Source: Sipunculus nudus
Lineage: Eukaryota; Annelida; Sipuncula; Golfingiida; Sipunculidae
DNA: 64,000 nucleotides
NCBI GenBank assembly: GCA_026874595.1
Contig: CM049308.1
Location: 92,259,624 to 92,323,623 of the forward strand
Direction of reading: 5' to 3'
The notes below the pieces were generated by a model. That model ran no database searches. It saw nothing but the letters and a program-made list of their open reading frames with translations, and was not told where the DNA came from. The position numbers and the translations under genes are program-made. Positions 4,119-58,500 of the stretch are shown here, one piece after another (the first letter of the stretch is position 1; every line of letters starts with the position of its first letter).

Positions 4119-4605
4119 ACCAATGGCCTATCTGCTTTCACCCGACAATGACCTGAGGTACTGATGAAAAGGTTGGCTCTCTCGAGGTATGTTCACACCT
4201 GTTTCTGACCGATAGACCTGCAATCGAGTATTTGATAAAATAACGAATAGAAACAATATAAAAAACGAATATATGAATGTTTTAAAATAAATAAGTGTAA
4301 GTGGTCTCTGATGAGCGCGTCAAAAAGATTAGCATGATAGTCTTCTTTTGTTTTTAAGAAAACAATAGTTTTAGGAGAAATAATGAAAAATCTACGACTT
4401 TACCGACTTACCCATCAGACTAAGGGTTTTTTTTTTAAAGTTTGGGAGTCATTTATCCAAGATAAATCTCGACTGTTGCTCATGAACTCGGGGATTCAAG
4501 CTTTGCTACTTTATTCAGTCCTTTTACTAAAGGACAAAAAATTTATTAGTGACAGCTCAGATTGTCTAACACGACTGTTTGTTAGCAAAAATATGCAGCG
4601 TATTA
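4119..4605. other. Non-coding stretch, nothing recognised
   Basis: A 77-codon frame at 4383-4616 runs into the 84-bp array and has no family resemblance. Confidence 0.4.
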
Positions 4606-5277
4606 GCCCGATTTAATCGGACTCAGTATTATTAGGCCCTGTCATACACTGAGTCCGATAGCCATACAGTGAGAATTTCTACAATATTAGCCCGATTTAA
4701 TCGGACTCAATATTATTAGGCCCTGTCATATATTGAGTCCGATAGCCTTACAGTGAGAGTTTCTACAATATTAGCCCGATTTAATCGGACTCAATATTAT
4801 TAGGCCCTGTCATACATTGAGTCCGATAGCCGTAGAGTGAGAGTTTCTACAATATTAGCCCGTTTTAATCGGACTCAATATTATTAGGCCCTGTCATACA
4901 TGGAGTCCGATAGCCATACAGTGAAAGTTTCTACAATATAAGCCCGATTTAATCGGACCTAATATTATTAGGCCCTGTCATACATGGAGTCCGATAGCCA
5001 TACAGTGAGAGTTTCTACAATATTAGCCCGATTTAATCGGACTTAATATTATTAGGCCCTGTCACACATTGAGTCCGATAGCCATACAGTGAGAGTTTCT
5101 ACAATATTAGCCCGATTTAATCGGACTCAATATTATTAGGCCCTGTCATACATTGAGTCCGATAGCCATACAGTGAGAGTTTCTACAATATTAGCCCGAT
5201 TTAATCGGACTCAACATTATTAGGCTCTGCCATACATTGAGTCCCATAGCTATACAGTGAGAGTTTCTAGAATATAA
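4606..5277 (+). repeat. Tandem array of eight 84-bp units, each with a stem-loop
   Basis: The motif GCCCGATTTAATCGG or a near copy starts at 4606, 4690, 4774, 4858, 4942, 5026, 5110 and 5194, and a degenerate ninth start is at 5278; every step is exactly 84 bp. In most units CGGACTCAAT and ATTGAGTCCG form a 10-bp stem around a ~20-nt loop containing AGGCCCTGTC. A second palindrome, CCGATTTAATCGG, sits just upstream of the stem. Confidence 0.97.
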
Positions 5278-5657
5278 GCCTCTGACTACACACCTCCCAG
5301 TGCCCTTGTAACCAGTGTCAACAGGTGTTTATTACCCCGTGCCAGCCCGTCAATCTTCAGAGCTGGGCCCGTTGAAACAAAATGTAACAACATTCTAGCT
5401 GTCAATCACTCGAATCGGCAAGGCTTCCATTCAAGCCTTTAAGTGCACCCATTCGACAGTTCTTCCCTGTCCCTACTAAACTCACTGACATGCCTCTGGT
5501 AAAATGGTCAGTAAATGTTTAAAAATGATAATCCAAATTTAATTTTAGTTGCTATCGAAACCATGAAACACACATATTGGCGTTAAAATGGTATAATCCT
5601 GTGTCTTCTTGTTTGGCAGTAAACAGGCAGCTGCATCTTCCGTGGCTTATATTGTAG
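5278..5657. other. Unique spacer between the array and a related inverted-repeat element
   Basis: 380 bp without array motifs, recognisable coding content or RNA gene. Confidence 0.4.
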
Positions 5658-13768: not shown

Positions 13769-15629
13769 GTAAGTTCCTGTTTTCGTATCGGGTCATTCAC
13801 CAACTTTGTATTCAGTCCGCTACATATTACAGTTTTTAACCTGGATTTTTTTTTTATATTTGATACAATAAGACAATATTTGATCATACACACAGCAACA
13901 GGCTGTCGTTATTCCGTTTATATCAATACAAGGACAAACCCATCCTCTGTTCATATGCCAACTGCTGAGGGTACGATTTTACTCGTCATCCCTATACACA
14001 TACATGCACATGTTGTACCGAGTAACGTGATTGAACCCCCACAGGCGAAAATTTGAATACAGTTTATTTTGGGTAGAACTTTAACAGTAAACTCGGGACA
14101 AAAGCCTTCAGGAAAGCTCATTATTCATAGCTTTTGGACGCTTGTCACCTGGGATCTTATGGGCGACTGATAAAATACAGAAAACAGCATGCAGTTTTGC
14201 TTTGCAAGTAGCAACATTGAAAATACTTGGTCTGTTTTTTTACGCTTATCCATCGTTGCTCGTTATTCATTTCAATCCTTGACAGGTTGCAGTGACGAAA
14301 GCCCCTGAATAGTTTATTGACTTACTGAGTACTGCATGTATTCTCTGGACACATTCTTCGTAAATTTTAATAATTTGTGTGTTCCTGGTGGTTTTATAAC
14401 AACCTCCACAGCCTGTGATTTATTTGTTCTCATACTATCACCAGGCAGGTCCTTTGTACTGCATATAGCTTGGGTGACCTCCACACAGATTTAAATGCAT
14501 TAATACATTGATCTGCCAGCATATGTTAATAGATATTGGTTTGTTTGCATGTATTCTTTTAAATCTTCACAATGTATTGTTAATTATGGAATAACGCCCG
14601 CATGGCTCTCGTTTATCTCGTGTATGTATATATACAGAACCTGGAAAATTAACACTGGTGGGGGTCTGACCACCATTACGTCCTTCATGAATGTTGTATT
14701 CACTACCTGTTCTAACAAAGGTCAATGGAAGCTATACGTATACATCCATGTCTATCTAAATGTGTGTATGTTCATGTGAATGTTTGTTTGTGTATAAAAA
14801 CATTTTGATAGGTGTCTTGTAATTATTTTCATTCCCATGGAAAATTATTCTGATGGGTAATTATTCTTATGAATAGCTATTCTTATGAATAACTATTCTT
14901 AAGAAAAAGGAACTAAAAACATTTTGACTGATTCTCGGCCGTTTAATTTAACCTTCCTTAAAATGTACCGGGAGGATTTAATACACGACAGGAAGGATAA
15001 AACGACGGAGAACCAGTCTGTTTTCATTTTAGATATGATCCAGATCACTTAAATGTTGGCCCATATCCAATTTCCCTATTTATCTTTTGGATACAAAATA
15101 ACAGAAATGTAATTAAAGTATTCGAGAGAAAATGATAAGATGGTTCTCAGGGAAGGGAGCAGTAGATTCACTATATATAGCAGGATCATTTTGTTTCGTT
15201 GTATATCTGTCCTCAAGCTGAAAGAGTAGAATGACTATACAATTGCGACATACCATGATATATTTATTGGTTTAATTATCTCTTACTGAGACACCACCGT
15301 TTTCAGAAACTATGCATGCGCAATTTATAGATTTACTTTAAAACAAGCGTTAATAATACTTGAACGAATACCTCAACTACCAGTACCCGGATCAATAGGT
15401 TCTACCATTTGCAATGCATGGCGTTAAACCATATATTGCTTACACCATAGGCCCCATGGTAACAAGTTTTATTATAATAAATTGTCTTTAAAGGCTTTCC
15501 ATCCTCTCCATAGTTTTGCTGTATAAAATTCGCTGCAACATCTTTTCAACAAAATCCAACCTTTCAATGAAAAAAACTTGAAATGTGGGAGGCTTGAAAT
15601 CATATGCACTACTTCGCCTCATTGGCGGA
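13769..15629. other. Non-coding stretch, no gene seen
   Basis: A short repeat of CTATTCTTATGAATA occurs at 14867-14900. Nothing else recognised. Confidence 0.4.
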
Positions 15630-16282
15630 CGTGTATTGGTTGTGGTTTAATCCAAGATCACGTTTATTGGTTGTGGTTTAATCCGAGATCACGTTTATTG
15701 GTTGTGGTTTAATCCCAGATCACGTTTATTGGTGGTGGTTTAATCCCAGATCACGTTTAATGGTTGTGGTTTAATCCCAGATCACGTTTATTGGTTGTGG
15801 TTTAATCCCAGGTCACGTTTATTGGTTGTGGTTTAATCCCAGGTCACGTTTATTGGTTGTGGTTTATTCCCAGATCACGTTTATTGGTTGTGGTTTAATC
15901 CCAGATCACGTTTATTGGTTGTGGTTTAATTCCAGATCACGTTTAATGGTTGTGGTTTAATCCCAGATCACGTTTATTGGTTGTGTTTAATCCCAGATCA
16001 CGTTTATTGGTTGTGGTTTAATCCCAGATCACGTTTATTGGTTGTGGTTTAATCCCAGATCACGTTTATTGGTTGTGGTTTTATCCCAGATCAAGTTTAT
16101 TGGTTGTGGTTTAAGCCGAGATCATGTTTATTGGTTGTGGTTTAAGCCGAGATCACGTTTATTGGTTGTGGTTTAATCCCAGATCACGTTTATTGGTTGT
16201 TGTTTAATCCCAGATCACGTTTATTGGTTGTGGTTTAATCCCAGATCACGTTTATTGGTTGTTGTTTAATCCCAGATCACGT
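15630..16282 (+). repeat. 31-bp minisatellite, about 21 copies
   Basis: The unit TTGGTTGTGGTTTAATCCCA continues with GATCACGTTTA and repeats with a 31-bp period (a few copies have 30 bp). Copies differ by single substitutions such as AGATC/AGGTC and CCCA/CCGA. There are no spacers between units. It lies about 3.7 kb upstream of receptor exon 1. Confidence 0.97.
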
Positions 16283-20052: not shown

Positions 20053-23000
20053 GTATGTTTTTTTATCGCTGCATTTAATTTATGTTTTGCACGAATTGTC
20101 AAACAGTTAAATATATTTTATTTTGGTGGGAATATGAAACGAGACTCTCATCAATAATCAATATAAACAGTATAACATGACAAATAATGCATGTATTTTC
20201 AAATTAAGATCCTCATAACTAAGAATTTTTTGTGTTATTACTACGCCTATACGTCAACAGATATAAAAAATATAGAGCACCCGGACAAAAACAGCTTTAG
20301 TTTCGGAGAAAATGAATGAGGACATGATGGCAAATAACATGCGCTTCTACGTTTTCCCTCAATCGTCTTTTGTCACTTTCTGTATATATGGTAGTAGTAA
20401 AATGAGTTTTCCCTTCTATAATTCTCACTGACTATATATTTTCCAGTTTTTTTTTTTTATTTATGAAAGAATTAAGTTAGTTAATAATTACGGACACCTA
20501 CAGGTACTGATCAATAGAGAAATGTTCATGCATGACACCTTAAAGACTTTTACCATTGCATCTAAGCTTAATTAAAGACTAGAGGGAGCTGGCGCTATCG
20601 GGCATTTTTCTAATCGGGTACTGAGGTCATTTTTATGGGTATATGCGAACATAAATGTTATACGTCATTTGACTGGCCCACCAGCCAACAACCTTGCGCA
20701 AAAGATCGTGATTGACTCATTCCATAACCTTTGGTAAAATGTTTTTGTTACATTTCTTCACAGATATAATGGTGTTCAAATGGAAAATACATTATGCCCT
20801 AGAAAACAACCTGCTAAAATGCTAAACATGCACGTGTGTTTATATGCAAACGAACAAAGCAGCATAATATATGCATAGTAACCATCCAGAAATCAACTGT
20901 CAACAGTTGTTTTAATAATTACGATGCTTTAAGAGTAAAATTTTAATTCTTTAGACCAAGCTACCCTTTAGAAACACTTCCTAAGAGTGGAATACAATCA
21001 TACAAAGAGAGCATACCATCTGTAAAACAAGGCAACCATGGGTCAGGGCGCTCAGCTGATTTTGTAAAATTTCAGCATATGCAAAATATACATATATTTT
21101 TGTTTAATATATAATGACATTTGAAAAGCTAAAAGGAAATTATCCTGCTAGTTGGTGATTATTAAGTACTAAATAAATGACTGCCAAACTAATACTCTGT
21201 CACGACAGCTATGGAAAAACCAGGCTAATAAATTCATTTCACTTTCAGCCAAGGCAGGGGAATAATGACTTTCCATTTAAAATAAATCCTCTTTTTTAGC
21301 ATGTATTATTTAGCGGGAAAATAAGGATTGATTTAATAAAATTTTATCACACTGATCTGATCTTTTTAAATTTTACAATTTTTATAAATTTGCAATAAGA
21401 AAAAATATGCAATTAAAGGTTAACTCTGCATTGTTTTTTTGTATTTGTACAATAGAGTTTTTAGTTCAATATACATGCTTAATTTTATTATCAGCAATGC
21501 AAGATTGATAAAAAAATTCCCTTTTCATATCAGATATACATATTATTTGTTGGATGAGGGGAAAAAAGCATCATTATGCTAAATATTATTTTAACCATAA
21601 TTTGATACTTAATTCATGTTATAAAAGAAAGCAAATAGTTTTTAACTTTTCTGAAGCAAGGAATTCCTCACAACATCTACACTTGTATAGCAGTCAATAA
21701 CTTTGTGGACACATAATTACATGTGACATCATTGTAACCCCTTATAATACAAAAAAATCCCAAAATGTGGCAAAAGTCTAGAACAACTGAATTAAACAAA
21801 GAAAATCACAATATTCGTCTTGTTTATGCATCCTCTCCATTTTTTGTATTGGGGGGGGGGGGGGGGGGGGGACAGAAGGGAAGATGAGCTTTGCTGAACA
21901 AAGGGAATTAGCTGCCTGGAGTGATGCTAGTTCGATAACAGCTTAGCCAGATGAGGGTTCCAGCACTTAATACACATCACTTTAGTAGGTTGGCTTAAAA
22001 TGGTGTTTGAAAACTTTTATAGAACTGTCATTAAATTACTTTCGAATTGCAGATTTTAAAAGAGTAAACCCTTTTGTGTAATTGCTTTTAAATTGAATCA
22101 ACAGTGTTAACCGGAATAAAAATGTACCATGGTAAAATTTGGGCAAAATTTAAGTATTGATTTTACTCTTTTGCAAATAACTCGAAAAGTATACAATATT
22201 CTGATCTTATTAAATCTTGATTGAATAAAGTTTTATCCTAAATAAGTTTTATCTTAAAAGAATTAATAATATAAACAAAATTATGAACCACACCAGATCG
22301 ACCAGCTAGATTAAGACTGATTGAGAGTGCAGTTCTAAACGAGAGGGCAAAAGAAAAAAAAAGGGCTCATGCCTTCCACTTTTTTGGGACTAAGATTTAC
22401 ACAAAAAAGGAAACTGATTCTAAATTAGACGTCTCTACTGAAATCAATCCCCGCATCAATTAATCTCCGACGCTGGGTTTTGGTGTCGCTGCCTGCTGAG
22501 AGATAATTTATAAAACCGATATAAAATGTAACAGAAAATCTCAACAAAGGAACGTCGCTTAGAAGCTGAGCAGCAGGTTTGGTATTTCAAAGAGTGTAAT
22601 ATAATTATTCCTGCTAATGAGGACTACAAGGATCTGGGTTGTTTTGGTACACTGGTTGAACCCGTATATTCAGCTTGTTCGATATTTCGCCGTCTTCTGA
22701 TCAATTGCTCTGCTGGTTATCTAGAATGCCATTTTATCCTGTTTCTCGTGTTCACCTAGTACCACATTTATCACATTATGTGAAGACCGCTCGATCTTCT
22801 ACGGGTTGCCCCGTCTTTTATTCTTACCTACAATGCTCGGCTAACACATGCTCTTCAAATGTCAATGCGAATGTGACCTTTATGGATAGGGGCGAGTTTG
22901 AAAACCTCGTAGGAAAAAGGTTGGTAGGGCGTTTATTATTTTTTTCAGATATTCTTTGAGTATTCTATACTTTTAAGGTACAAGGCCAGGGTGAGATGTA

Positions 23001-23222
23001 GAAGGTTTAATATTGAATTGAAGTAAATCTGTATGAGAATTTGGATTACGCGCACACGTTTTGGTTTGTGTATTCGTATGCCTGTTTGTCTGTCCGAGCG
23101 ATTGCGTTTACATATTTGAAATGTAAGTATTTTTAAAAATTTGGCATGGAAAATGAACACATTGCAAAAAAATTGAAGCCGGCATTTAAAAACATATGAC
23201 TGTCCTTTGACACTAACATTTG

Positions 23223-23259
<37 letters not shown>

Positions 23260-26200
23260 GCCTTTAGGTAAAGCGCTGTGAAAGAGCGTACAGAACATGG
23301 TGTCCATCAGCCTTATTTTAATTATTAAAGGCTTATGTTTCTGTCTAATAGTTGACATTTCCATGAATGTATGGATACTTCCAACATGAAATGAAATGTT
23401 CATATAACCGTCCAAAAGTGGTCATTCATGGACAGTACGAAGATATTGAATGAAATTCATTATAGAAGTTTTATTTGTTAGACATTCTGGGAGCTTCTTC
23501 GTGCGGCCATGTGATTTTTCTAACGGTCTTGCCTCTTTTGAAAATGCATCATTCGAACGACTGTCAAAATCTGAATGCGATAGATTGGTCGATAGCATTT
23601 CAATTAAACTCTAAAATACTTTTTGTTCAGATATTAAAATAAGAGTTTTTCTCACATTATCTGATTACATTGTTAGTTATCTTTGTAAAAATATACATCT
23701 ATAGCGTATTCATCCATTGATGGCACGGCCTTTATTTGAATTGAAAAGTTAGTACATAAATGTATTATCAAAAGACGTTCACATTGATTTGAAAATAATG
23801 GTCTTATTTTGTCCTCGCGAGCGTAAACGTCGGGCAGTATGAATAACTTTTTTTCAATTTTCTTTAGGACAATGTTTTCCACATGTTTTTAAGCTGTCGG
23901 TGCAAAACTTGCTGAAAGTTTGATGCCGGAAGTCAGGCGCCATGCCAATTCTCTAATTGCTCCGGACCATGTCTGTGGATTATTTCCTCCGCTTAACGGC
24001 GTCATCAAAGGAAAACGGATTGATTTCTATTATATTTTTCTAATATGACCTTTTTCAAATATTGTCATTTCCTTTAATCTTTTGATGCATGAAATCGGAC
24101 TGAAATCACGCGGTCAATATATCGCCCGAGGGAGAGACCTTGAATGTGTTCCACGCAATTAGTTCGTTCACTAGCATCCGGTGAAAATTTCAAACCCTTT
24201 GGGAAAGGTTACAGATTTACGGTACTTCGATCTTGTGCAAATCTGTAAAAGCGCACCTGCATTTTCCTTGAATTGTTGATATTTCAATGACGTCAGACCG
24301 ATTAATCCCTTTTTGGTCTCCTCCACTGCATATTTTACATTTTTCTTATCAATTTATAGAAACTTGAAAAAATGTCCTTTGACCATACTTGTTAAGCTCA
24401 GTGGACATCTAATCATGCGAAGCTTTAACGTTCACTCGGACTTCTAACCATGCGTAACTTTAACGTTCGCTGGGACTTCTAATCATGCGTAGCTTTAATG
24501 TTCACTCGGACTTCTAATCATGCGTAGCTTTAATGTTCACTCGGACTTCTAATTATGCGCTGCTTTAACGTTCGCTCTTTCGCCATCGTCCAGCAGACCC
24601 ACTTACCAGCATTTATTTTTCTGGTAGAACCTGAAAATTTCACATTCAGTGATTGGCCCAGAGATAAACGAACACGTTTTATTTAGTAAATTTGTATACA
24701 ATTCAGTATTAACTTTAATACAGCCATATATATTACTAATTTTGTACATTAGAAATTATTATCCAATTTACTCTTCGCGTGTATACAAACATTAATTGGG
24801 CTTTTATGGTTTCAGCAAATATTTATTTTTTAAGCGCACCTGTGAGCTAATGCGATGGCGCAGCGTCGTCCGTCCGCCGTCAGCCGTCCGCCGTCCAGGG
24901 CTGGCTTTACGCCGTCCATGGCTGTAATTTAGAAACCGTCGGAGCTAGCAGCTCCAAATTACATGTAAGAATTAGTCACATGTGAAACTCGGTGCCCTGG
25001 AGCTTATTTTTTGGTATCTGTATTAATTTAGATTTTATAGGGTAAAAGCTTAAAAACCTTTAAAAATCTTCTTCTCTGAAACTGTCAAGCCAAATTGTCC
25101 CAATATTTCACAAAAATGTTCCTTGGAACAATCTCTCTCAAGTTCGTTCGAATGGTTTCAGTTCAATGATTTTTGACCGAGTACCAGGAAGTTGAACTTA
25201 GTCATCTGTGCAAAAAAGCATACTAAACTTAAAATCTCAGAAACAGCTGGAGCTGTCATCACCAAATTTTATGCCAATGTTTGTCACATGAGTCGTATCT
25301 GAAATTGAGGTGTTGGTGGCGCCACCTACATTGATCTGTTTTTTTTTTACAAGCAAAAATGTAAGTTTAGACTCTTATAGCTTATACACTGTTTTTTTTA
25401 GGAAACTGTTAAGCTGATTGGTTTATACTTTACAAGAATTATTCTATGGTAGGGATCTGCCAGTTTTATAAGAATAGATTGGGTAAATGCAGCTTTAAAA
25501 AAGCAGTGTAGCCAATTGCAAAAAGGCTTTCTGTGTTGAAAACAGATTTGACAACATGCCCAGTTTCAGCAGCCAAGTCAAGAGGTTACTCAGTACAACC
25601 AGGTGGGGTCCACACATCACCATCGCAACTGACCTGGCTATGTCTGGTGTCTAGACAATGTGTCTAGACGTCTAGACACAGCTTCTAGACGCAGAATGCC
25701 CAGATTATAATTATTGAAACTGTATCTTTCAACTGTTTGAAAAAATCTTGGTTTGCATTTTTAGCGAATCTGTGAGCTTATGCAATCGTCTTCCGCCGGC
25801 CGTCGTGCGTCATAGCTATCTCAAAAAGGGCAGGAGCTAGCATCACCAAATCTTTTGCAAAAAAATTGTCATCTAAAAAAATTCTATCGGAATTTGCTTA
25901 TTTCTTGGCTAACTGCATTTTCTTAGATTTTATAGGGAAGAAGCTAAAAAACATTAAAAAATGTTCTTCTCCGAAACCATGCTGCCAAATCGTCCATTCA
26001 TCTGTTTCAATAATCCTCCCTGGTAAAAAGAACATATCTGAAATATCCTGACTGATACATCCTAGTTGTATCCGCCAAAACAGAGTTTTGCGGATACTGT
26101 GTTTTCAGTTGGACGCCGCCGCCTCCGCTTAGGTTTCCGGAGAACTCCTCGTAACCACTGGGCAGAATTTTTTTTTTTAAATTCGGAATTATGATCAGGT

Positions 26201-29200
26201 CACATGTGAACTGCTGCGCCCTAATTTTTGGTTGACATCTGTACTTTTCTCTCTGCCCAGCGTCCATTTGTGCGTCTGTTTCCACACATAAACCCACATA
26301 TCTGGGGAACCGTTTGACCGATCAGGCTAAAAATGTAGCACTTGGATAGCTTTATAACTTACACTAAAAATGGTGGCGCCACCTGCAACCATTTTTGTAA
26401 CCCGGCAGTGGTTTGACTTATTCACCTGAAATTTTGCAGGTTTATACATCCGGGACAGTTTCTTGATTTTATGACAGGTGGCGCCACCTACATTCACGTT
26501 TACGCTGCAGACATCCAAGCTCATATCTCAGGAACCGTTTGACCGATTTGGCAAAAATTTTGCATGTGTATAGATCTCACATAGCTCTTTATCATATGCA
26601 AAACTGGTGGCGCCATCTGCAACAATTTTGGCACAGCGTCCGTCTATTTGTCTGCCGTGGGATAAAATCACTCATATTTCGGCAGTGGTTTGACTTATCC
26701 ACCTGAAATTTTGCAGGTTTATACATCCTGGACAGTTTCTTGATTTTATTAAAGGTGGCGCCACCTTCATTCATGTTTACACTGCAGACATCCAAGCTCA
26801 TATGTCGGGAACCGTTTGACCGATTGGGCCAAAATTTTGCATATGTATAGATCTCATATAGCTCTTAATCATATACAAGTAGTGGTGTGACTTATCTGCC
26901 TAATATTTTGCATATGTATACAACTTGGACAGCTTTCTGGATTTTGTGGTAGGTGGCGCAATCTACATACACATTTCGGCTGCAGACATCCATGCTAATA
27001 TGCAACACACCTAAAGTAGGCCGCACACAAAGCGGACGAGACGAGACGAGATCGCACCGGACTTGAATCCGGTCCGGTCCGCTCAGTTTGCGGCCATTGG
27101 CGGACCGGACTGCCAGTTCGGGACCGCTCCGGACCCAGTCCTGAGCGATCTTGACCATATCAAAATGTTTTGATATTTCAGGACTGGTCCTGAGTGGTCC
27201 GGTCCGGTCCGCATGAGTCCGCTCTGTTTGCGGGGGTTTTAGGACTAGCTAGGATCGGGACTTTGTCATTGACCAATGAGAGCAGCTCTATGAATCACAT
27301 GATAGACGTACAAATATAAAGATGGCGAATTAAGAGACGTTAAATAACGTGGGTGACACATGGAGTTTGGTGTACCTTTTAGCTATAAAGGGAAATACTT
27401 GCTAAAAAATAGTGTTGCTCACCACATCTATCATCTAAATACAGCATAAAAGATTCACGTGTAATTGCAATTTAATATAAAAATAACAACCAAAGATATA
27501 CTTCTGTTGATCATATTTCGATAGTTAAGTATGATCAAAACAGTAGTATTGTACATAAATATAGTTTCCTATTTATATACAGAAAACTAAATTTAGAGTG
27601 ATGTAATACAAAGCAAATACGTCATAGCACAATAACATTGTTTATATGTGTTTTATGATGACAGGTGAAGTTACCATAAATTGAAAAGATTGTAGATATC
27701 CAGGTTGATTTATAAATGGAAGTATATTACCTCAGACAGAGATGCCATAATTTTTGTATGTATGTATGTATATAATATAATATAATATAAGAGTATCTTA
27801 TTAAAAAATCCTATCCGATCCGCTCTGTGTGCGACCCCTCAGGACCGGACCGGACTGGGAAAGATTGTGGCGGACTCTACAGGATTTTCAGTCCTGTCTG
27901 GTCCGATCCGATCTCGTCTCGTCCGCTCTGTGTGCGGCCTGCTTCACTCTATTTCCCCTTGCCACTCAATCCATGCCTCACTTCATCCGTCCCACTCTGA
28001 TTTTGGCGGATACATGTAGTCGCTTATCGACTACCCGTATTCTAGTTTTAAAATGTCCTAGTCCGAAATTTGCAGGTCCGAAACATCCATTTTGCTGAAA
28101 TCATAATACTAAGGTAGATATGCAGGACATAAGAGGATCAATATTAAATTTTAAAAATAATCCTCCATTCATACTCCTTAACTTTGCACAGGTTCGCATA
28201 AGGCCTGTAGGCCTTGTTTAAAAGTCTCAGCCTTCTTTATTAACCAATCTTTATTTACTTTGTCAATGAAAGTTGAAATAACTGGTTCCCCAAAATATTC
28301 TTCTCTGTAAACTCTAAGGTGAACACGCATGATGTCTGTTATATAATGCATAATTTAAAATGGCCCCCGTGACAACAACCGGCTGCAGGTGGTGCTGGTC
28401 AGCACAGACTGGTCACAAATGTACCTCTGTAAGTGATAAAAGTGTCTTGTAGTTAAAGACTGAAAGACAAGAACACTTGACGGAGAAGGATCATTGCCCT
28501 ATTATCGCTCGCGTCCACGGACCAAAAGTCATCGTACAAACCAGGTTGACGCAGTCATGAGGATCAGTCTCACCTGGCTGTATTTAGCATTGATGTACGT
28601 TTGACGAAAAAAGTATCATTGCGCGAAGTCAAACACTCTTTCTCGCTCAGGTCAATGTACTTAAAGTCACAGAACATACACAGCTGAAGGGGACTGAAAG
28701 GTCAGTGTAATGAGTCACTGCATGTTAGTAGCATCTGATCAGCGGGAGGCAGGCCTATGTTTCATATAGGCAACTAGGGTATTGATAACTTACATGGATC
28801 ATTTACTGCCTTATTTCTATTGGATGCAGACAGATGATATAACAATTCAGCAGTCTTCGCTGATCAATTAGACTGTACAGATGGTAGGCTTCATGTTATA
28901 GAGTTTTACCATTGTGTGTTCCTCCACATAGAGGCACGGAATAGGAATTATTCACCATTGCTCACATGAATAAGGTGCTTATTGAACTGTTCCGTCAACA
29001 TTTGATGAAAATCGTTATCCATGTTTATATAAGTTAAAAGCAACATATGACGAGTTTTATGTTTCGTATCCCTAAATTACAATTCCATAATCGCAGTTTA
29101 ACCTTGTATTTTGATATACATGCATTTTTTTCTGACCGAATTTTAGTTTTATTACTTGACTCGGCATCTGTCACTACAATTGTGTATGTAGGTTGCCCCC

Positions 29201-32200
29201 CCCCCCCCCACCACAAAATCCAGAAAGCCGTCCAAGTTGTATACATATGCAAAATTTAAGGCAGATAAATCAAACCACTACATGTAAATGAGTGATTTTA
29301 GCCCGTGGCAGACAAACAGATGGACGCTGAGCAAAAATGGTTGCAGGTGACGCCACCAGTTTTGCGTATGATAAAGAGCTATGTGAGAACTATACACATG
29401 CAAAACTTTGGCCCAATCGGTCAAACGGTTCCCAAGATATGAGCTTGGATGTCTGCTGCATAAACTTAAATGCAGGTGGCGCCACCTGTCATAAAATCAA
29501 GAGAGCTGTCGGGGATGTATAAACCTGCAAAATTTTAGGCAGATATGTCAAACCACTGCCGAGATATGAGTGATTTTATCCCATGGCAGACAAACAAACA
29601 GGAGCTGTGCAAAAATGGCTGCAGGTGGCGCCACCAGTTTTGCGTATGATAAAGAGCTATGTGAGATCTATACACATGCAAAATTTTGGCCCAATCGGTC
29701 AAACGGTTCCCGAAATATGAGCTTGGATGTCTGCAGCGTAAACGTGAATGTAGGTGGCGCCACCTGTCATAAAATCAGAAAAGCTATCCAGGATGTATAC
29801 GCATGCCGAATTTTAGGTGAATTAGTCATGTCACTGCAGAGATATGAGTAATTTTAACCCAAGGCAGACGAACAGATGGACACTGTGCAAACATGGTTGC
29901 AGGTGGCGCCACCATTTTTTGTGTATGTTATAAAGCTCTCCAAGGGCTACATTTGTGCAAAAAAAAATTTTCCTGATCGGTCAAACGGTTCCCGAGATAT
30001 GAGCTTGGATGTCTGCAACGTAAACGTGAATGTAGGTGGCGCCACCTGTCATAAAATCAGAAAAGCTATCCAGGATGTATACGCATGCCAAATTTCAGGT
30101 GAATTTGTCAAGTCACTGCAGAAATATATGAGTGATTTTTACCCAAGGCAGACAAACAGATGGACACTGTGCAAACATGGTTGCAGGTGGCGCCACCATT
30201 TTTTGTGTATGTTATAAAGCTCTCCAAGGGCTACATTTGTGCAAAAAAATTTTCCTGATCGGTCAAACGGTTCCCGAGATATGTGGGTTTATGTGTGGAA
30301 ACAGACGCACAAACGGACGCAGAGCGCAGAGGAAAGGTCGGAGGTCAAAAGAAAATAGGGGCGCAGCAGTTCACATGTGACCCGAACATAATCCCGTGTT
30401 TCGTAAAATTCCGCCCAGCGGTTACGGAGGAGTTCTCCGGACACCTACGCGGCGGCGGCGGCGTGCAGCTGAAAACATAGTATCCGCAAAACTCTGTTTT
30501 GGCGGATACAATTACCTTTGCCAAAATCCAAGATGGCCCCCAGATTAGAAACTGTCAATAACTTGAGTTATAATGTCACCAGAAAACATTGCAAATACTC
30601 TAATGTTATGTTTTTTTTCTGCTGAGAAATTCAATTTTTGAGGTTTCAAACCTCTTCAGATACTCATTAGCTGGGTTTTTATCAAGAATTTGGTAATATT
30701 CCCATTAGTCCAGCGGTGAAGCTGCAAATTGAGAAAATTGTGCAAAAGATGAAAGAAGATAAATTTGGCATAATAATTTTCCAGACCATACTCTATATGT
30801 TCAGATATGGAGCTGAGCGGAAATCGCCATGTCTTGGTAAAAATCCAAGATGGCGGCCAAGATGGCCACCGAAATATAAAATAACAATACAGCCGGTTAT
30901 ATTCGACCTAGTGCACTGTTTTTATGTTATTGGGGTCAAGAAATTCATTTATAAGGGTTTGAGGTCTGTATCATGAATGTATGAATGAAGTCTGATTTTG
31001 TTGGTATTGAAATTGTACTAAAATTGCCCTTTTTACAGCACATCTAACGGTAAAACGTATTCGTTGATTACCCTGCTGGAATTTAATATATTTGTTAATT
31101 TTGAGTATTTAAACACTTTCTCTTTCAATGTAATGAAAGGGACAGTCGATTGGTAAAACGCTCGGCTCTCTTCACTTGCGACCAAGTTTCTATCCCTGAT
31201 GTTGCTATGAGAGTGGGTTGTAGTGGTCCGTACAGAGGCGGTTGTTTTCTTCTTGTCCTCTGATTCCGTCCACTACTTTGCCTTCGACCCATGGAAAGTG
31301 CCTTGTAGTTGCTATTATAACCGGTTGTACAACCCATGTTGAAGAATTTTTTTGTTTATAAGTTAATGATTCTTTTACAAGCTTCCAGACTCCTTGCTTG
31401 CATGAAGACTCAGTACATATTTTATCTTCAAGTGCACAAGATGCAAAATTGTAGATCGAACTGAACCTTGCACATTAGATAAAAAGAACCGATAGTAAGT
31501 GGGTGTTTTACCAGAGGAAAAACGCCCTTGGCCGGCCAAATCTAAAAGAAAATATTTAGGCACAGGTAATAAAAAATTGCTGGCAATATTACAAAGATTG
31601 CTGTAATAAACTGTTCTGTTCAGTAATTCAGAAGTAGTGTATTCTCAAAAATGTATGTTCACTAAATGAAGCAGATGGTATGAAATACAAGTTTCCCAAG
31701 CATTCTGCAATTGGACATAAAACGGACAAAGGGAAAGTGCAACTGTACTGGGGTGCCAGATCTCAGAAGCTGACAGCACAGGAAGTTACAATCACCAAAC
31801 AAGTCGATAAAAACTCAAATTAAACTTTGTACTGAATTTTGAGGTAATCAAGTTGAAGATAAAATGCATGTCTGGAACCTGAGGTGCATTATATTTTTTA
31901 ACCTTGTTTTGGGAATTCGACTCTCTATATCTTCCGCCTTGCTTTTCCATTTATTTAGCGTCCATCCATGATAGATCTGCTAGCTTGAACCTGGCAGCAC
32001 CGACTGATACATGTAGTGAATATATCTAACAATAAATGCAGTTACTACATGAATCTACAAATGTGCATAATGTCAGCAAAAGAAAGTATTTTGATGACAT
32101 AAACACATTATGCAAAGTGAATTTTAATGTCAACTAATTGGCAAGGAACTAGTGCTATATCACTAGAAAAGCATCACAACAAAGGGCAGTGTTCTTTTAC

Positions 32201-38670: not shown

Positions 38671-41600
38671 CATAAGTTATAATTTTACTTTGGAAGATTG
38701 TTTGGAAATATACAGTGAGTCAATGACTGTATTTGGTTTATTTATAATATTATACTTTGAATTTGTATCCTTAGTTTTCTCTCCTCATTTCTTCTCCAAC
38801 GATATTCTCATGAACACAAAAAATGGAAATACCCTACACCGGCTCTTTTAAATTGTTTAGACAAGTCTCATAAATCAAGGAAGGATATCGATTCTACCCC
38901 AGGACACTCCGTAGTCAGTGTGGGACGAACCTTCAAAGCGGTATGTCTAGAGTTTACTGTCTCCAGGTTCGCGGCCTGATGGCAAGATAAATAGCAAACC
39001 GAGGAGAAAGCCTATTAATAAAGGAAAAAGGGTGTATTGACTCGTGTGTCTGCCGTAAGACCTGTTGTCCCTGAAAGACCCAGGCCTTGTTATGAATTTC
39101 ACTGCGAGTAGCGACTATTACTTTTTATTTCCTCAGCGTGTGTCATTATGTGTGATAATGGAAAGAGTGTGAATTGACACGTGTTAAAGTAAACGCAGTC
39201 TTGACTTCAACAAATCTTTTTTTTGAATCAGCAATGGGCTCTGGGTAAAGCAAATAAATTCCACAGGATCTTCCCGAGAGGAGGGTTATCCCCCAAAGAC
39301 CCTGTTTAATTCCCACTGTACTGAGTCTCGTTCCCGAAAAAGTATAGTGGAGGATGGGACAATAATCACCCAGTTTCCTATATGCTCATTGACCAAAACA
39401 TACAAGACAGCAGATGTTTAACTTGTGCAACAGTTGTAATTTTTGTATTTTATGTTGTTTTGTCTATTTGCCAGGTCAAATGGACGTTTGTTAAGCTAAC
39501 ACTTTTGCATTCTTGAGAATTCTAGATATTCATCACAATTTTTGTATTTAACCCGAAATGATTATATTTTGTTTATCATCCTCTACAAAAAAAAAAAACA
39601 TTTTCCAAAGTAGCCAGCAATGCTATAGACTGAGTGTAGCGTATGAATTATACTCAGTAGATTGTGCTATTTATGCTCCTTCGTCCAAATTGTCGTAGAA
39701 GCGACTCGTTTAGCTACGTTTGTGATTACAAGGCACAATAAGGTTTCCTACATAAGCCCCTTATGTGATTGCTTTGTAATTACGATGAATAAGCATCATT
39801 TACACCCTGCGTCGGTTAATATTTGGAAAATGCGCGGCATTCGCTCGGGGGCCACCAAAACGTGCACTTCATGAGACAAAATATGTCATTTCCTGAATGT
39901 GGCGTCGGTTCTGGTAGTTGGATCGATTAAGTAACCTGGTTATAAAGATGCGATCACATAGTAAATGGACATAATATATCAACCTTAATGAATGTGATGT
40001 AAAGCACCTCGGGATAGCTCCTGCTTTGGGACAATAATCACATATTTCGCTTCAATGCGGATACCGTATGGCCAAAAGCACATAAATCCCAAATAACTAT
40101 GGTTTAATTCTGTTTCCACAGAGCGGTGAGCTCCAGAAATCCAGGAACTTGCCTAAACTTGCCAAAATGGTATTTTATTTATCGGGATGATTTTTAGTCA
40201 GATCCTTCCACTTCTTATTTGTCTTCTTGTCTTATCTTCTTCCGACCACGTAAATTTCACATGATTATGACTAAGTATTCCCGAAATTACCGATCTATGG
40301 CCGGAAGGTACATGCATCGATTTTTTTAAAGATTTGAGATTAATAGTCTGATACGTGTCTGTGTGTGTCTTGGCGTCCTCGCAACTGGTGACAGGTCGTC
40401 CCACTGTTACATAACAAGAGTCGCACAAATGCTGTGAAGGTCCTTCGGTATTTACACGAACTTCGGCCATGTTCACTATTCAACGCAACTCTATCTCTCG
40501 CTTCAATGTTTCACCTTTTCCATGTTGCGTATTCGTTGCCCCTATTCACAAGATTGTCTGGAACTTAATATCTTATTAATAAGGAGCAGGGATTTTAATT
40601 AAATTATAAAGAAAGAGGTAACTCCTGAAAAAGACCTGGTGATTAACTAGTTAAGAATTAATAATGTTTCTCCTCAGCGGGCTCTACTTCCCTCAAAATG
40701 ACTGATGTTAGCAGCACCTGTTAGGTTTCGATTCCGTTTTCATAAGCTGACATTTTATGCTGTGTATATGTTTAAATCAGAGGCAACAAGTTCCGTCGAA
40801 ACTAAATATACGATGAAAGTCACCTTGCCGGAAACGCTGGTAGATCGGGCCGTGATGTTCTCGTTAGTGCAGACCGGGGACAAAGATCAAGGCTTTAGAT
40901 GCGGGATATTGAAGATAGATTTAATCTTATCACACTGTTGTCTCGGCCCAAGACGTGTGATTCCGATCCGCTCTGCTCCTCTCCGTCAACAACGTCTTGG
41001 GAACGACTCTTAGGAAAACGCCTCGTTAGGTTCCAAATAGGAGACCCCTTTGGAATCGTATAATTGATATTTCAAGCGGTGTCAACATAAAATAATTACC
41101 TTTTTGTTGTCTTTGGATGTTTTTTAAACATCTGTAAAGTATTGGCACCAAAATAATGCTCAGTAGCTCTACTTATCCATAATTTTGCCAAGAGCTGATG
41201 TGTTTACATAGAGAACATGCCGCCATGATTACATTAAATGACCCACAGTCCTTTGCAACGGGATTTAGACTGGGAACCCGCTCTTATCGCTGTTTGATCT
41301 GGAAAAAGCGGGCGATAATAGATCTCGGTGGCGGGTACCAGTTGATCAACGTCCGCTCATTACAAATTCCTGTATATTGTTATGTTTAAATCACGGCGGG
41401 CTTATAAGGATCGTTAGGGATAATATTTCATTAATATATTAAGGTAAGAACGTGGTAAAGTTGCCAGGAAGACCCATTAAACACCAAAGACACTAACGGA
41501 TGCATTTTGGTGTGTATATTTAGTAGTTTTAAGAGTTTTTTTGGTGCCTTCTACCAGTGTCTACCATTTCACCATTACAAGACCTAATTGTACAGGCCAT

Positions 41601-44600
41601 TCCCACAACTGTGATCGTATCACAGTTGTGGATCCGCAACAAATCACACTGATGCTTCATCCTTTAATCAGATAAGATGATGCTTGTTACACGTAATTAT
41701 AACCACAATGGTCAGACACATCGGTGTTCTAGCAAGGCATTCGGTGATATCATCCAGTATATCACAATAAAACCACCTGTCTGCAGGTCAAACAAACGTA
41801 TTCCAAATCTCATTATATTTATCTTATAACATAATTGCCTATGAAAAAAATATTCATATAGATTTTATATAAAATGAGCCCAGTTCCTGGAGGAAAAACA
41901 TTTTTATGCCCCCGCCACAAAGTGGCCGGGGCATATAGTTTTACCCATGTCCGTCCTTCCGTCCTTCCGTCATTCCGAAATCAAACAGTTGTACGGACTT
42001 TTTTTCACAATGCCTCCAGATATTGGCCTGATTTTTGGTGTGTGACCAGTTCCAGATCGAGTTCGCGTTTCGTCCCGGTTGACCTACTTTTGACCGTTTT
42101 ACGGCTCTTGAACATAGAAAATTTCATGAAAAATAGAAATTTTCATGACAAACACACATGTACGGACTTTTTTTCGCAATGCCTGCAGATATTGGCCTGA
42201 TTTTTTGTGTGTGGGCAGAAATTGACCAGTTACAGATCGAGTTCGCGTTTCGTCCCGGTTGACCTACTTTTGACCGTTTTACGGCTCTTGAACATAGAAA
42301 ATTTCATGAAAAATATAAATGTTCATGACAAATACAAATGTACGTACTTTTTTTCGCAATGCCTGCAGATATTGCCCTGATTTTTGGTGTGTGGGCAGAT
42401 AATGACCAGTTACGGATGGAGATCGCGTTTTGTCCCGGTTGACCTACTTTTGACCGTTTATGGCTCCTAAATTTAGAAAATTTCATGAAAAATAGAAATT
42501 TTCATGACAAATACACATGTACAGACTTTTTTTCGCAATGCCTGCAGATATTGGCCTGATTTTTGGTGTGTGGGCAGATAATGACTAGTTACAGATTGAG
42601 TTCGCGTTATCCCAGTTGACCTATTTTTGACCATATGACAGAGATCCTTAACATAGAAAATTTCATGAAAGACAGAAATTTTTATGAAAAATGCACATGT
42701 ATGGACTTTTTTTCACAATGCCTGCAGATACTGGCCTGATTTTTGGTGTGTCGCTTGATAATGACCCGTTACAGATCAAGTTTGCATTTTGCCCTTGTTG
42801 ACCTACTTTTGACCATACGACACCTCCAGAACTTAAAAAAAATTTACAAAATTTAACAAATGTTTCTAATTTGCCCCAGACGGGGGCATTCGTGTCGTTC
42901 CGACACATCTAGTTTCTATATATTTTTCCACTAAAAACATGAGGTTGTGTGATTTGTTCAAAAGCTATGGGCACATCTATGAGCACTGTCAAATCGGCAG
43001 TGACGTCACACACTGGGAAATCCCCTATGACTAAAAATTCTAGATCTCAGTAAAAGCACAGTATTTCCGCCTCTGTCAGTCCCAAATTTTTAGCAGAGAA
43101 TTAAAACAACATGTATTACTAGATCTGAGTTGTTGATAAAATTCAGTCCATGATGTCACATGGACAGCCAATCAAATCAGGGCAAAGTCTGGGATCTGGG
43201 TGAAATCCTCCCATCACACAACAAACGCACGTGGAATAGGTTTACTTAACCTTCAGGTCAAACAAACGTATTCCAAATCCCATTATATTATCATATAACA
43301 CAATTGCCTATGAAAAAAATATTAATATAGACTTTACATAAAATGAGCCCAATTCCTGGAGGAAAAACATTTTTTCTATCTATTTTTCCACTAAAACATG
43401 AGGTTGTGTGATTTATTCAAAAACTATGGGCACATCTATGAGCACTGTGAAATGGGCAGTGACGTCACACACTGGGAAATCCCCTATGACTAAAAATTCT
43501 AGATCTCAGTAAAAGCACAGTATTTCCGCCTCTGTCAGTCCCAAATTTTCAGCAGAGAATAAAAACAACATGCATTACTAGATCTGAGTTGTTGATAAAA
43601 TTCAGTCCATGATGTCACATGTGTATCAGCCAATCAAATCAGGGCAAAGTCTGGGATCTGGGTGAAATCCTCCCACAACAAACGCACGTGGAATAGGTTT
43701 ACTTAACCTGCAGGTGACAGCTTGTAAAGTTTCTGACCTGATGTTTTGTTCACTTTGCAATTTATCTCGAGATATAAGTTTGTTAAGAAATTGCGATTAA
43801 AAAACGGGGACTGTAATATTTAAGTGAATTGGAAACAAAAGGAAACAAAAAGAATATATATATACATAGAGGGAAATATAGTACATATAAAGTACAGTTG
43901 TCTATTCCAAATGGATTGTCGTGCAAAAAAACAGCAAATAACAATTGCTATCAAACACGCATATGCAAAATGACAAATAGAAAAGGCAGCGAGTATATTA
44001 GGGAAATGAGAGGGAGAATAACAAAGCGGATGACCACGTAAAACCGATAGGAAACCGAAACTGAAACGAAATGAACCAGCAGTAATAAGAGGGGAAGCAC
44101 ATGGAATCCAATGCAAAAAGAAAATGTGAATTTAAAAGAAAACCTGGTGTGAAATCAGTCATATGAAATGAAAGAAATAAGAGAAAAATACTGTAATCAT
44201 TATAGAGAAAGCTCCACAGTCCACACCGTGTCACACCGGTAAAGATATGAACGTTCAGATTCTTTGTAAATCAAACAAACTGGCTGAACTCTTGCATACA
44301 TACAATCTAAAAAAAAATAATAAGATATGTGGTAACAAAACTCTTTATATTAAAGGAAGAAGTTACTTACATTCTCTGGAGATGCACACAACATATACCA
44401 ACGATGAACAATGATGATAAACACATAAATAAACAATGAGTCCATGAATGACGGTATACCAAAAGTTCCTGTTCCCTCTGTTTCTGGTCACATGACCATC
44501 GCGCACACATAACACCGGGATGTAACACTGTTTATCTCACTTAGTGGTTCGCAGTGTGTACAGTACATTCAGTCCCACAGATTCACGGAGCTTTTTTAAT

Positions 44601-55500: not shown

Positions 55501-58500
55501 GGATTTTCTTGTGGAACTAAAAAATCTTTAACTTCAGGGAAACGGTACCCTGGGGACAACTTCTGCCAAGTTTCTGTTCGATATCGTCAGGAACAACGTG
55601 GATGACACGTCGCCCGTGTTCGGGTCAGCCATTGCAGTGGAGGAATACGTCTACCCGGAGTACAGGATCTTCTGTCCGTACGCCTACAAGAATAACCGTG
55701 TGTACTCCCACGATATCTCACTGAACTACAATTACCTCAGCAATACGACGGAGTGGTACCACAGCCTCAGGATCAGGGACTGGTCCAATGCGTCCGTCAC
55801 CGAAAACTTGGTCACATACAGGTAAGTCAGCTTGTTCTCTTGGATTAGGCATCACCCTGTCAAATCTCTCTCACTGTACACATAAAAGGGGACCGACACC
55901 GAAAAGAATGCATTGTGTTTTATCTTTTGAGATTTCGAACAATTTGCAAAAAAAAAAAAAAACAATAAAAAAAACATGTTTTTCGGGATTTTATTTTTGT
56001 AAAAGCACAACTGATACAAATGTACACACGTTTACCAAGACGCAAGACGTGTGCCTAGTGTGACGTCATGCTCCGATTATTGCCGAATGTTGCCGAACGC
56101 TTTTTTCAGTTTCGGGAGTTCTCGAATTTAGGCATAATTGGTACTGTAATTAAGGGTGAAATAGGGGTACTATTGGGGAGGGATTACTTTTATCATAAAG
56201 AATTATTTCTTTGTTGTATATAAAAGCGAAATATGTGCAGAATATCAATGTTTAAAGGCAATTCTTGATAAACTTTAACAAACCATGGTCCATGACATTG
56301 TGATGAGTCTGTTGACTACAAATGTCTCGTCAATACCAAGAAGTGTACCAGTGCTTCTTGAACTAAACTGATCCAACTGGCCCAATGAATTAAAATGGGA
56401 TGAAATACATATACATGTACATTAATTCAGGTTGAGTTACGGAAATGGGTCAAGACAACCTTTAAAAAGGATTAGTGTTAGGTTACTGTTATTTGGCCTG
56501 TACGTATTACGGGTAGACCCACGACGAAGGAATTTAAATAAAATGCAAGTTCAATGACCAAGTTCACATGAATGCTTGTTTAAGGTATTCTGCGAAGTCT
56601 TTTTAAGTTTTAATGACAGGGCTTCAGGGTAGCTGTTCTTGGTTATCCTTGGTGTGAAAAATATCCTTGGCAGTATGGAAAAACAGTGTTCAACTGGCCC
56701 CGAAGAGACGGCGTCGTTTCCTCTGCCTTTCCTTGGCCGCGGGCATGACCGTTAACGCATCCAGCTTCGACATAGAATGTGATTCTTGGCCAAACAGAGC
56801 CGGTCTATGGTTGACCTCTATACATGAGCTGCATAAGATCGGTTTTATGTTACAAAGAAATCCAAGATGAAACCCGGCAAGGTATTGGGTTACAAATGTT
56901 GCATAAAGGTCTTCCCAAGGAAAATGCAAGGTCCCCACAAGATTAAATGCAAGATAAGTACCTTACAATACCTTGGCAAAGCCTTGCACTGGAGAGGCCA
57001 GCACGCGTCCGTGACACCCTTATTTAATCTGACATTGGTCCGTTAGTTAATCGTGGCAGAAACCGCGAATTAATCAGCTTTTGACCGGGATAAAGACCAG
57101 TCCTGTGTTCGTCCGCCGGCAATCCGTCGGATGATGTCGGTTTTGCCCTCCGTCGTCCGTCCGGCGATCCAGCCTTGATTCCCCCCTATCTAAAGGATAA
57201 AGCATGGCAATGTATTTTTGCGTTTGCTGCTACATTAATGCCCACTCTTGTGATATTGTGAACCCCAGTAAGGGAGCTCTTTAATTAGACATGTTATGAC
57301 ATGTAATTAAATGTCAAAGGATCAGACACCATTTTTAACATTATTGTCAAGGCCCCATATCAACTAACACCTCAAGGTTCTAATTTTGCGTGATTCATTT
57401 GACCTAGATTCCATGGTCCTACTCTCCGATGTTTCAAAGATGTTTGTAATTTCAAAGAGATTAGAACATGAAATTCTGTTAATCAGTTCCCACGAATTTG
57501 GACCAACACGAATCGGAACAATCTGATCATGTGAAAACTTTGCAAAAAAAAAATCTGAAGGCTTGACGAGCCGAATTCAAAAACGCTTTTAGGTTACCAG
57601 GTGTTTAGGTCGATTATCAAAACCATGTCATGTGCCAACAGTTACATTGCCAACTGATACGTGCACATTTCTTCAAATTTAGATGATTTTATTATAGCTT
57701 AAGCCACCACGCATTCTCCTCTTTTTGGTTGGACCCTTGAAGCATTGATCAAGGACCCCTGACATCCGCCTTGTTACCTCCAGCGATTCCCACACCTCGG
57801 AGGTGTTCCGTCCTCCGCCTTTAATCACGGTACGGTCCTCGGGGTTACCAGGTATACCAGTTACGTTATGTCACGGGCGATTTAAATCATGCAAAGCAAG
57901 GTTGAACATCAAAGGTACTGTTATAATTATCCTCTTCACAGAGAGTTCACCCCGTTGGTGACTGATAAAAGAATGACTCATTATGTCCGTATGATGTTTC
58001 CTCTGAATAACTGGCGACAGAAAGTGGCAAAAGATGCCATTGCATATTATAAGTGGTCGTTAATCTTAATTATGGTTCGCTAGTTAAAGGTTTGCTTAAT
58101 ACAGTGCTGTTTTTTTGCTTGTTTTTAAAGCATTTTTCAAGGAAAAACTGTTAACACTTTTTCATGCTCCACATGCAGGTGTTTATCTTTTCTGTAAAAT
58201 TTGTCCGGATCAGGATCTTCTTGAGGTGATTTTTTTTTCTCTCAGAAGATTAGTTTAGGCTGTTTATACTTAATAGTACATGTATATTTAAGAACTTGGT
58301 TAATTTGTTAAGTTTGCCTGTTTATACTTCATAATATATTTAAGAACTTGGTTAATTTGCTAAGTTTGCCTGTTTATGCATCATAGTATATTTAGGAACT
58401 TGGTCAATTTGTTAAGTTTGCCTGTTTATACTTCATAGTATATTTAAGAACTTGGTTTATTTGTTAAGTTTTCTCCACCAGTGTTCAATAATAGTAACAT

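Follow-up and report, generated by a model that had tools for sequence, protein, structure and literature searches.

In a 64-kb stretch of Sipunculus nudus DNA (64,000 nucleotides; hereafter, the window), a unit of about 460 bp stands twice in tandem, one copy interrupted by 1,007 bp and the other whole, which raises the question of what the interrupting DNA is, whether it was gained by one unit or lost from the other, and how exactly its ends can be placed within a run of T's. Our reading, to which we assign a probability of about nine in ten, is that the segment 41904-42912 belongs to a high-copy family of HINEs (non-autonomous Helentron/Helitron2 elements), is non-coding, supplies only ends for a Rep-helicase of that group acting in trans, and lies inside the T-run of the leading monomer in a MITE-like dimer. 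A HINE nested in a MITE-like dimer is an ordinary event, and this kind of element is already known, but the present case is unusually readable: about 1.5 kb separates the filled form from the empty one, the interrupted repeat offers 20 further empty copies and about 2,200 first-look candidates, and together with several nested insertions elsewhere the locus narrows the ends and the target to one or two bases.

Repeat matches to the first unit (unit A) cover 41784-41905 and 42913-43255, interrupted by 41906-42912 (1,007 bp), and the match to the second (unit B, 43254-43712) is whole, agreeing with the split parts of unit A at 93.4% and 94.2% identity. Sequence reading of 41200-44400 and the repeat analysis agree that both units, arranged head to tail, measure about 460 bp. 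The filled unit reads ...GGAAAAACATTTTT/ATGCC...CTAG/TTTCTAT (slashes mark the insert borders) and the empty unit GGAAAAACATTTTTTCTATC, with six T's in unit B versus five plus three in unit A, which reproduces the arrangement described in the first-pass annotation. Resolved into features, the left part of unit A (41785-41903, plus strand) ends in the target ATTT (41900-41903) and is followed by TT (41904-41905, plus strand), which, given a net gain of two T's at filled sites, most probably forms the element's 5′ terminus. The right part of unit A (42913-43251, plus strand) begins with the remainder of the target T-run, the inner junction of the dimer is TTC (43252-43254), and unit B (43255-43708, plus strand) is the empty site, with its T-run at 43370-43375. 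The dimer is bounded on the left by TGC (41782-41784), a probable target duplication repeated after unit B (43709-43711). No Rfam match was found in 41700-43800 and no tRNA gene in the 64-kb window; the insert holds no open frame of at least 150 aa, the sole one listed for the window being at 22945-23415. Tandem arrays occur elsewhere in the window at 4601-5280 (84-bp unit), 15629-16282 (31 bp), 24403-24577 (35 bp), and 58282-58471 (52 bp).

The first-pass annotation treated the ~460-bp unit as a tandem duplication, which the analysis supports; the unit is, in addition, itself a dispersed MITE-like repeat, and the dimer carries TGC on both sides. Searching the 1.43-Gb genome with the unit turned up 2,203 first-look candidates; the best 40, once scored, show (window rows apart) 93-96% identity across nearly the whole unit. 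Copies begin with AGGTCAAR, end with TTAACC, and have imperfect inverted repeats at their termini, and reading of the flanks identified identical 3-bp TNN flanks in 9 of 21 single copies (12 of 21 are without them).

An exact match to the context of the head-to-tail junction was found three times genome-wide: in the window, at L074 (C3:93877125-93878157), and at L099 (C10:22634720-22635780). The junction reads TTC in every case, although at L099 just 67 bp of a second unit are matched. The full dimers have different outer flanks, TGC in the window and TGT at L074, and their monomers differ by 3.8% and 0.67%, respectively, from which it follows that the window duplication is old. Divergence between units A and B (3.8%) can be set against their mean divergence from other copies (4.5% for A, 3.7% for B) and that of the other copies from one another (3.1%). 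Substitutions common to A and B nevertheless occur in only 0, 1, and 4 of 23 other copies, and in both full dimers the paired monomers have in common substitutions that other copies seldom or never show, implying that each full dimer arose from one founder; the earlier description of A and B as a filled and an empty copy of one duplicated unit is thereby upheld. We considered whether A and B might be independent insertions, but the shared rare substitutions make a common founder likelier despite the 3.8% divergence. The idea that a dimer moves as one unit is weakened by the comparison with L074 and L099. The shared TTC junction may mean that dimers have arisen more than once in the same way, or that an old dimer lineage has been homogenized.

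In a first genome search with the element, 40 of 4,092 candidates were scored, and 39 further loci were fetched at these places. As the first-pass annotation had proposed, copies were collected genome-wide and their ends aligned: in 36 of the 39 fetched loci both ends are present within one base of the window borders (L011, L027, and L044 are incomplete), and homology between copies stops at 41906 and 42912 apart from T's and a favored A. Exact 21-base ends occur 2,651 times (5′) and 2,343 times (3′) in the genome, with none for a reversed-pattern control; true numbers should be higher, since the patterns demanded no mismatch and a non-G base 14 positions outward. Chance borders are excluded by the sharing of both ends among the 36 loci and by these counts. 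Element lengths, the window copy included, lie between 832 and 2,579 bp and differ largely by multiples of ~180 bp, the length of an internal monomer, and the ends have a median divergence of 5.3% from their consensus (3.3% in the window copy). A 27-base piece of the 5′ end had no exact match in viral_contigs. Two of the fetched loci, L016 (C3:45905700-45909700) and L017 (C2:62456800-62460800), hold the same element copy on two chromosomes; their near-identical flanks suggest that they are probably one duplicated insertion, produced by segmental duplication or by a larger mobile unit carrying the HINE.

The anatomy of the element bears out the Helentron-like nature initially assigned to it, comprising an asymmetric inverted repeat, hairpins, a microsatellite, and tandem monomers, all on the plus strand. 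The 5′ arm of the inverted repeat, ATGCCCCCG (41906-41914), is contained in a 5′ hairpin (41905-41935; z −3.64 for the fold of 41899-41990), and the 3′ arm, CGGGGGCAT (42881-42889), its exact 9-bp complement, lies 23 bases before the 3′ end. Between the arms are a GTCC/TTCC-type microsatellite (41949-41977), resembling that of Cg_HINE, and an array of ~180-bp tandem monomers (41990-42840; TRF reports 4.3 copies at 42043-42814). A first 3′ hairpin, TGCCCC/GGGGCA (42872-42889; z −5.25 for the fold of 42860-42918), precedes the terminal hairpin GTGTCG-TTC-CGACAC (42892-42906), which follows the 3′ arm, ends six bases from the border, and is completed by ATCTAG (together 42892-42912, the exact end found 2,343 times). 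Single-stranded DNA folding thus yields one hairpin at the 5′ end and two at the 3′ end, and 0 of 200 shuffles folded as well at either end. Several features of the HINE/Helitron2-Helentron group are present, namely an inverted repeat that is asymmetric and (sub)terminal (8-15 bp in the group, 9 bp here), a 5′ hairpin holding the 5′ arm, a 3′ hairpin after the 3′ arm, and a clearly T-rich target; a TT duplication is contradicted by L017, as described below.

Insertions comparable with paralogues among the fetched sequences numbered 13, in addition to the window site. A net gain of two T's relative to a close, clean empty paralogue is seen at the window site, L037, L017, L014, and L032; among the remaining nine, L018, L019, L022, L038, and L042 each have at least one alignment with a gain of two. 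L028 deviates with a gain of one, L043 and L047 with a gain of three, and L033 sits in a tandem array in which the gain is not readable. Further, more diverged paralogues give other values (+3 for L014, L019, and L022; −1 for L038). The empty paralogues of L017 have four T's in three cases and TGTT in a fourth, yet five T's stand to the left of the element; L032 reads TTTTATT/element/TTTT against the empty TTTTATTTT; and the right flank of L046 is without T. Window repeats at 24941-25996 (L018, L022, L028, L042, and L043) and 26299-30350 (L014) provide empty sites for HINE insertions elsewhere.

Junctions were also tabulated directly, as 99 distinct 5′ junctions from 100 listed of 2,651 (the first 34 Mb of one chromosome) and 99 distinct 3′ junctions from 100 listed of 2,343. 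Among these listed 5′ junctions, T occupies positions −1 to −5 in 93, 97, 88, 96, and 95 of 99; A, G, or C stands at −3 in 11 of 99, and TT is kept at −2/−1 in 10 of these 11. On the 3′ side, T is found at +1 in 98 of 99 listed junctions and at +2 in 90 of 99, and the right flank starts other than TT in 10 of 99. As a null for the target we used the 2,042 TTT^T sites of this one window, the junctions being drawn from part of one chromosome. An A precedes the target TTT at 51 of the 76 listed 5′ junctions having at least five T's, compared with 29.9% of the window sites (p = 2.6e-11); exactly five T's occur in 59 of the 76, against 60% expected (p = 0.001); and right-hand T-runs are longer than in the window null. 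Taken together, these enrichments define a target of roughly ATTT^TTT.

How the T's are divided between element and host bears on both borders, which the first-pass annotation regarded as fixed to the base, with about two T's of target overlap. Outside the T-run the borders stand as proposed; at the 5′ border one to two T's are ambiguous, and the start is probably 41904. Likewise, the two T's are real as a net gain at clean sites, but not as a simple TT duplication. Were the element to start at ATGCC with a true 2-bp TT target duplication, the window site taken alone (six T's becoming five plus three) would fit, but the L017 paralogues, with a four-T target (TGTT in one case) where the filled site has five T's on its left, exclude a plain duplication, and 10 of 99 listed right flanks do not start with TT; we regard this reading as extremely improbable. 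Our preferred reading is an element TTATGCC...CTAG that would start at 41904 and enter TTD^T (D = T, A, or G), as supported by L032 and by the TT kept in 10 of the 11 listed junctions with a non-T at −3. The break itself probably falls at A-TTT^T, the element's own two 5′ T's accounting for the net gain. A boundary variant of the same explanation, with one T at each end (T-ATGCC...CTAG-T) and a target ATTTT^N, appears possible but on the unlikely side. It gives letters identical to the preferred reading, accommodates T at +1 in 98 of 99 listed junctions, and comes close to the Chlamydomonas Helitron2, which is reported to insert after TTTT with a 5′ T (PMC3627910); if a single T were duplicated and the element brought one T of its own, the outcome would be indistinguishable. 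Nothing in the sequence speaks against this variant, and junctions alone cannot separate it from a 5′ TT. Exactly five T's precede ATGCC in 27 of 36 fetched copies, a uniformity partly expected because 60% of window TTT^T sites are preceded by a non-T. The idea, first suggested by this uniformity, that all five are borne by the element was rejected in view of this null, of L032 (A, then TT), and of the non-T bases at −3 in 11 of 99 listed junctions.

The element's class and the direction of the event were weighed in the same manner. A derivative of canonical Helitrons (Helitron1), with TC...CTRR between A and T, would explain the CTAG that follows the 3′ hairpin, a resemblance that counts against the HINE reading, and a 5′ TC is present in 2 of 36 fetched copies (L019 and L021). 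The TC start suggested by these two copies is nonetheless rare: C at −1 occurs in 0 of 99 listed junctions, and exact TC ends number 14 genome-wide versus 2,651 ends, although the latter were counted with a shorter pattern and the two figures are not equally comparable. L032 could be read as an A^T insertion, but in most junctions the break lies amid T's, with the A usually three bases upstream; the target T^T, the 5′ hairpin, and the asymmetric inverted repeat are likewise at odds with a canonical Helitron, to which we give almost no credence. With regard to direction, the first-pass annotation had left the choice between insertion and clean loss from one copy. Around the site, 20 of 20 other fetched MITE-like copies are uninterrupted, and 16 of the 20 read CATTTTTTCTATC with six T's (L058, L060, L063, and L064 depart from this exact context), so that the family state is empty and unit B is identical to it there. 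Because the 20 copies came from the top-scoring matches to the unit as a whole, those with inserts are under-represented in the sample. The choice even so leans strongly to insertion: with none of these 20 interrupted, clean loss is by far the less likely history. Loss from unit B would require that the founder already carried the element when the dimer arose; the private variants common to A and B do indicate a single founder, and either the dimer or the insertion may have come first, but loss would also have had to delete two extra T's to leave unit B reading like the family. Precise excision is not known as an established property of Helentrons, and we consider such a history very improbable.

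The element would be moved by a Helentron protein acting in trans, presumably by a rolling-circle process in which a single strand is transferred, beginning at the 5′ end and finishing at the 3′ hairpin and CTAG. Candidate sources exist in the same genome, where the Helitron Rep domain PF14214 has at least 143 matches (150 of 195 first-look candidates scored), seven of them in open frames longer than 2,200 aa. One such frame, L098 (C11), combines Rep, PIF1, and Exo_endo_phos in a 1,367-aa slice, the Helentron layout, although its ends are not linked to those of the element: the borders of this Rep-PIF1-endonuclease element were not found in the fetched flanks. The element's ends were absent upstream of six Rep places (one searched from 3 kb outwards) and downstream of two, of the 143, and two genome-wide pattern searches for this 5′ end joined to another interior found 0 and 1 matches. 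A Helentron-type frame at L069 (C11:50385904-50388904) has an upstream part made up of ~23-aa tandem repeats rich in K, R, Q, and E.

HINEs are described as having at least two T's at each end, and because element and target both carry T's, their distribution is left unclear in that account (PMC4067079). We tentatively suggest, at somewhat less than even odds, that Helentron-group elements read a directional A-TTT^TT, counting from the A that borders a T-run on its 5′ side, and carry two terminal T's of their own, which, if true, would answer the question of T sharing between host and element left open there (PMC4067079); a literature search confined to listings and partial texts returned no statement of an A-TTT^T rule. 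The HINE-Mo/DINE-1 elements share with ours near-end inverted repeats, a 3′ palindrome, flanking T's, a non-coding interior, and tandem repeats in some copies, comparable to the array here (PMC4067079). The same text reports no target modification and leaves the side of the T's open, whereas our data mostly favor placement at the 5′ end; in contrast to that system, the Rep flanks and patterns searched here yielded no Helentron whose ends are nearly identical.

Helitron2 has an asymmetric terminal inverted repeat whose 5′ arm is terminal and within a 5′ hairpin, a 3′ arm just ahead of a hairpin, and insertion at T without TSD, all as here; the present element differs in ending with CTAG and in lacking an internal Rep-helicase gene (PMC3627910). 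FoHeli1/2 of Fusarium oxysporum similarly place a 5′ hairpin right after T(C) and a 3′ inverted repeat with a hairpin, and show a one-T ambiguity at the 5′ end resembling our own, but carry a transposase gene, an ATTTT end, and another target (PMC5148889). Close parallels exist with Cg_HINE of the Pacific oyster, likened here by description rather than by sequence (PMC7492417). Its inverted repeats are normally 11-12 bp, versus 9 bp exact here, and a TT preference without TSD is noted there, where we count a net T gain and an A before TTT^T. Otherwise the two correspond in a 5′ subterminal inverted repeat with its complement, a microsatellite (several there with GTCC-like motifs), central tandem repeats (140-180 bp there, ~180 bp here), a right flank of ~60 bp with an inverted repeat and palindrome, an autonomous partner that is likewise unlinked, and insertion without TSD at T-rich targets within other repeats (PMC7492417).
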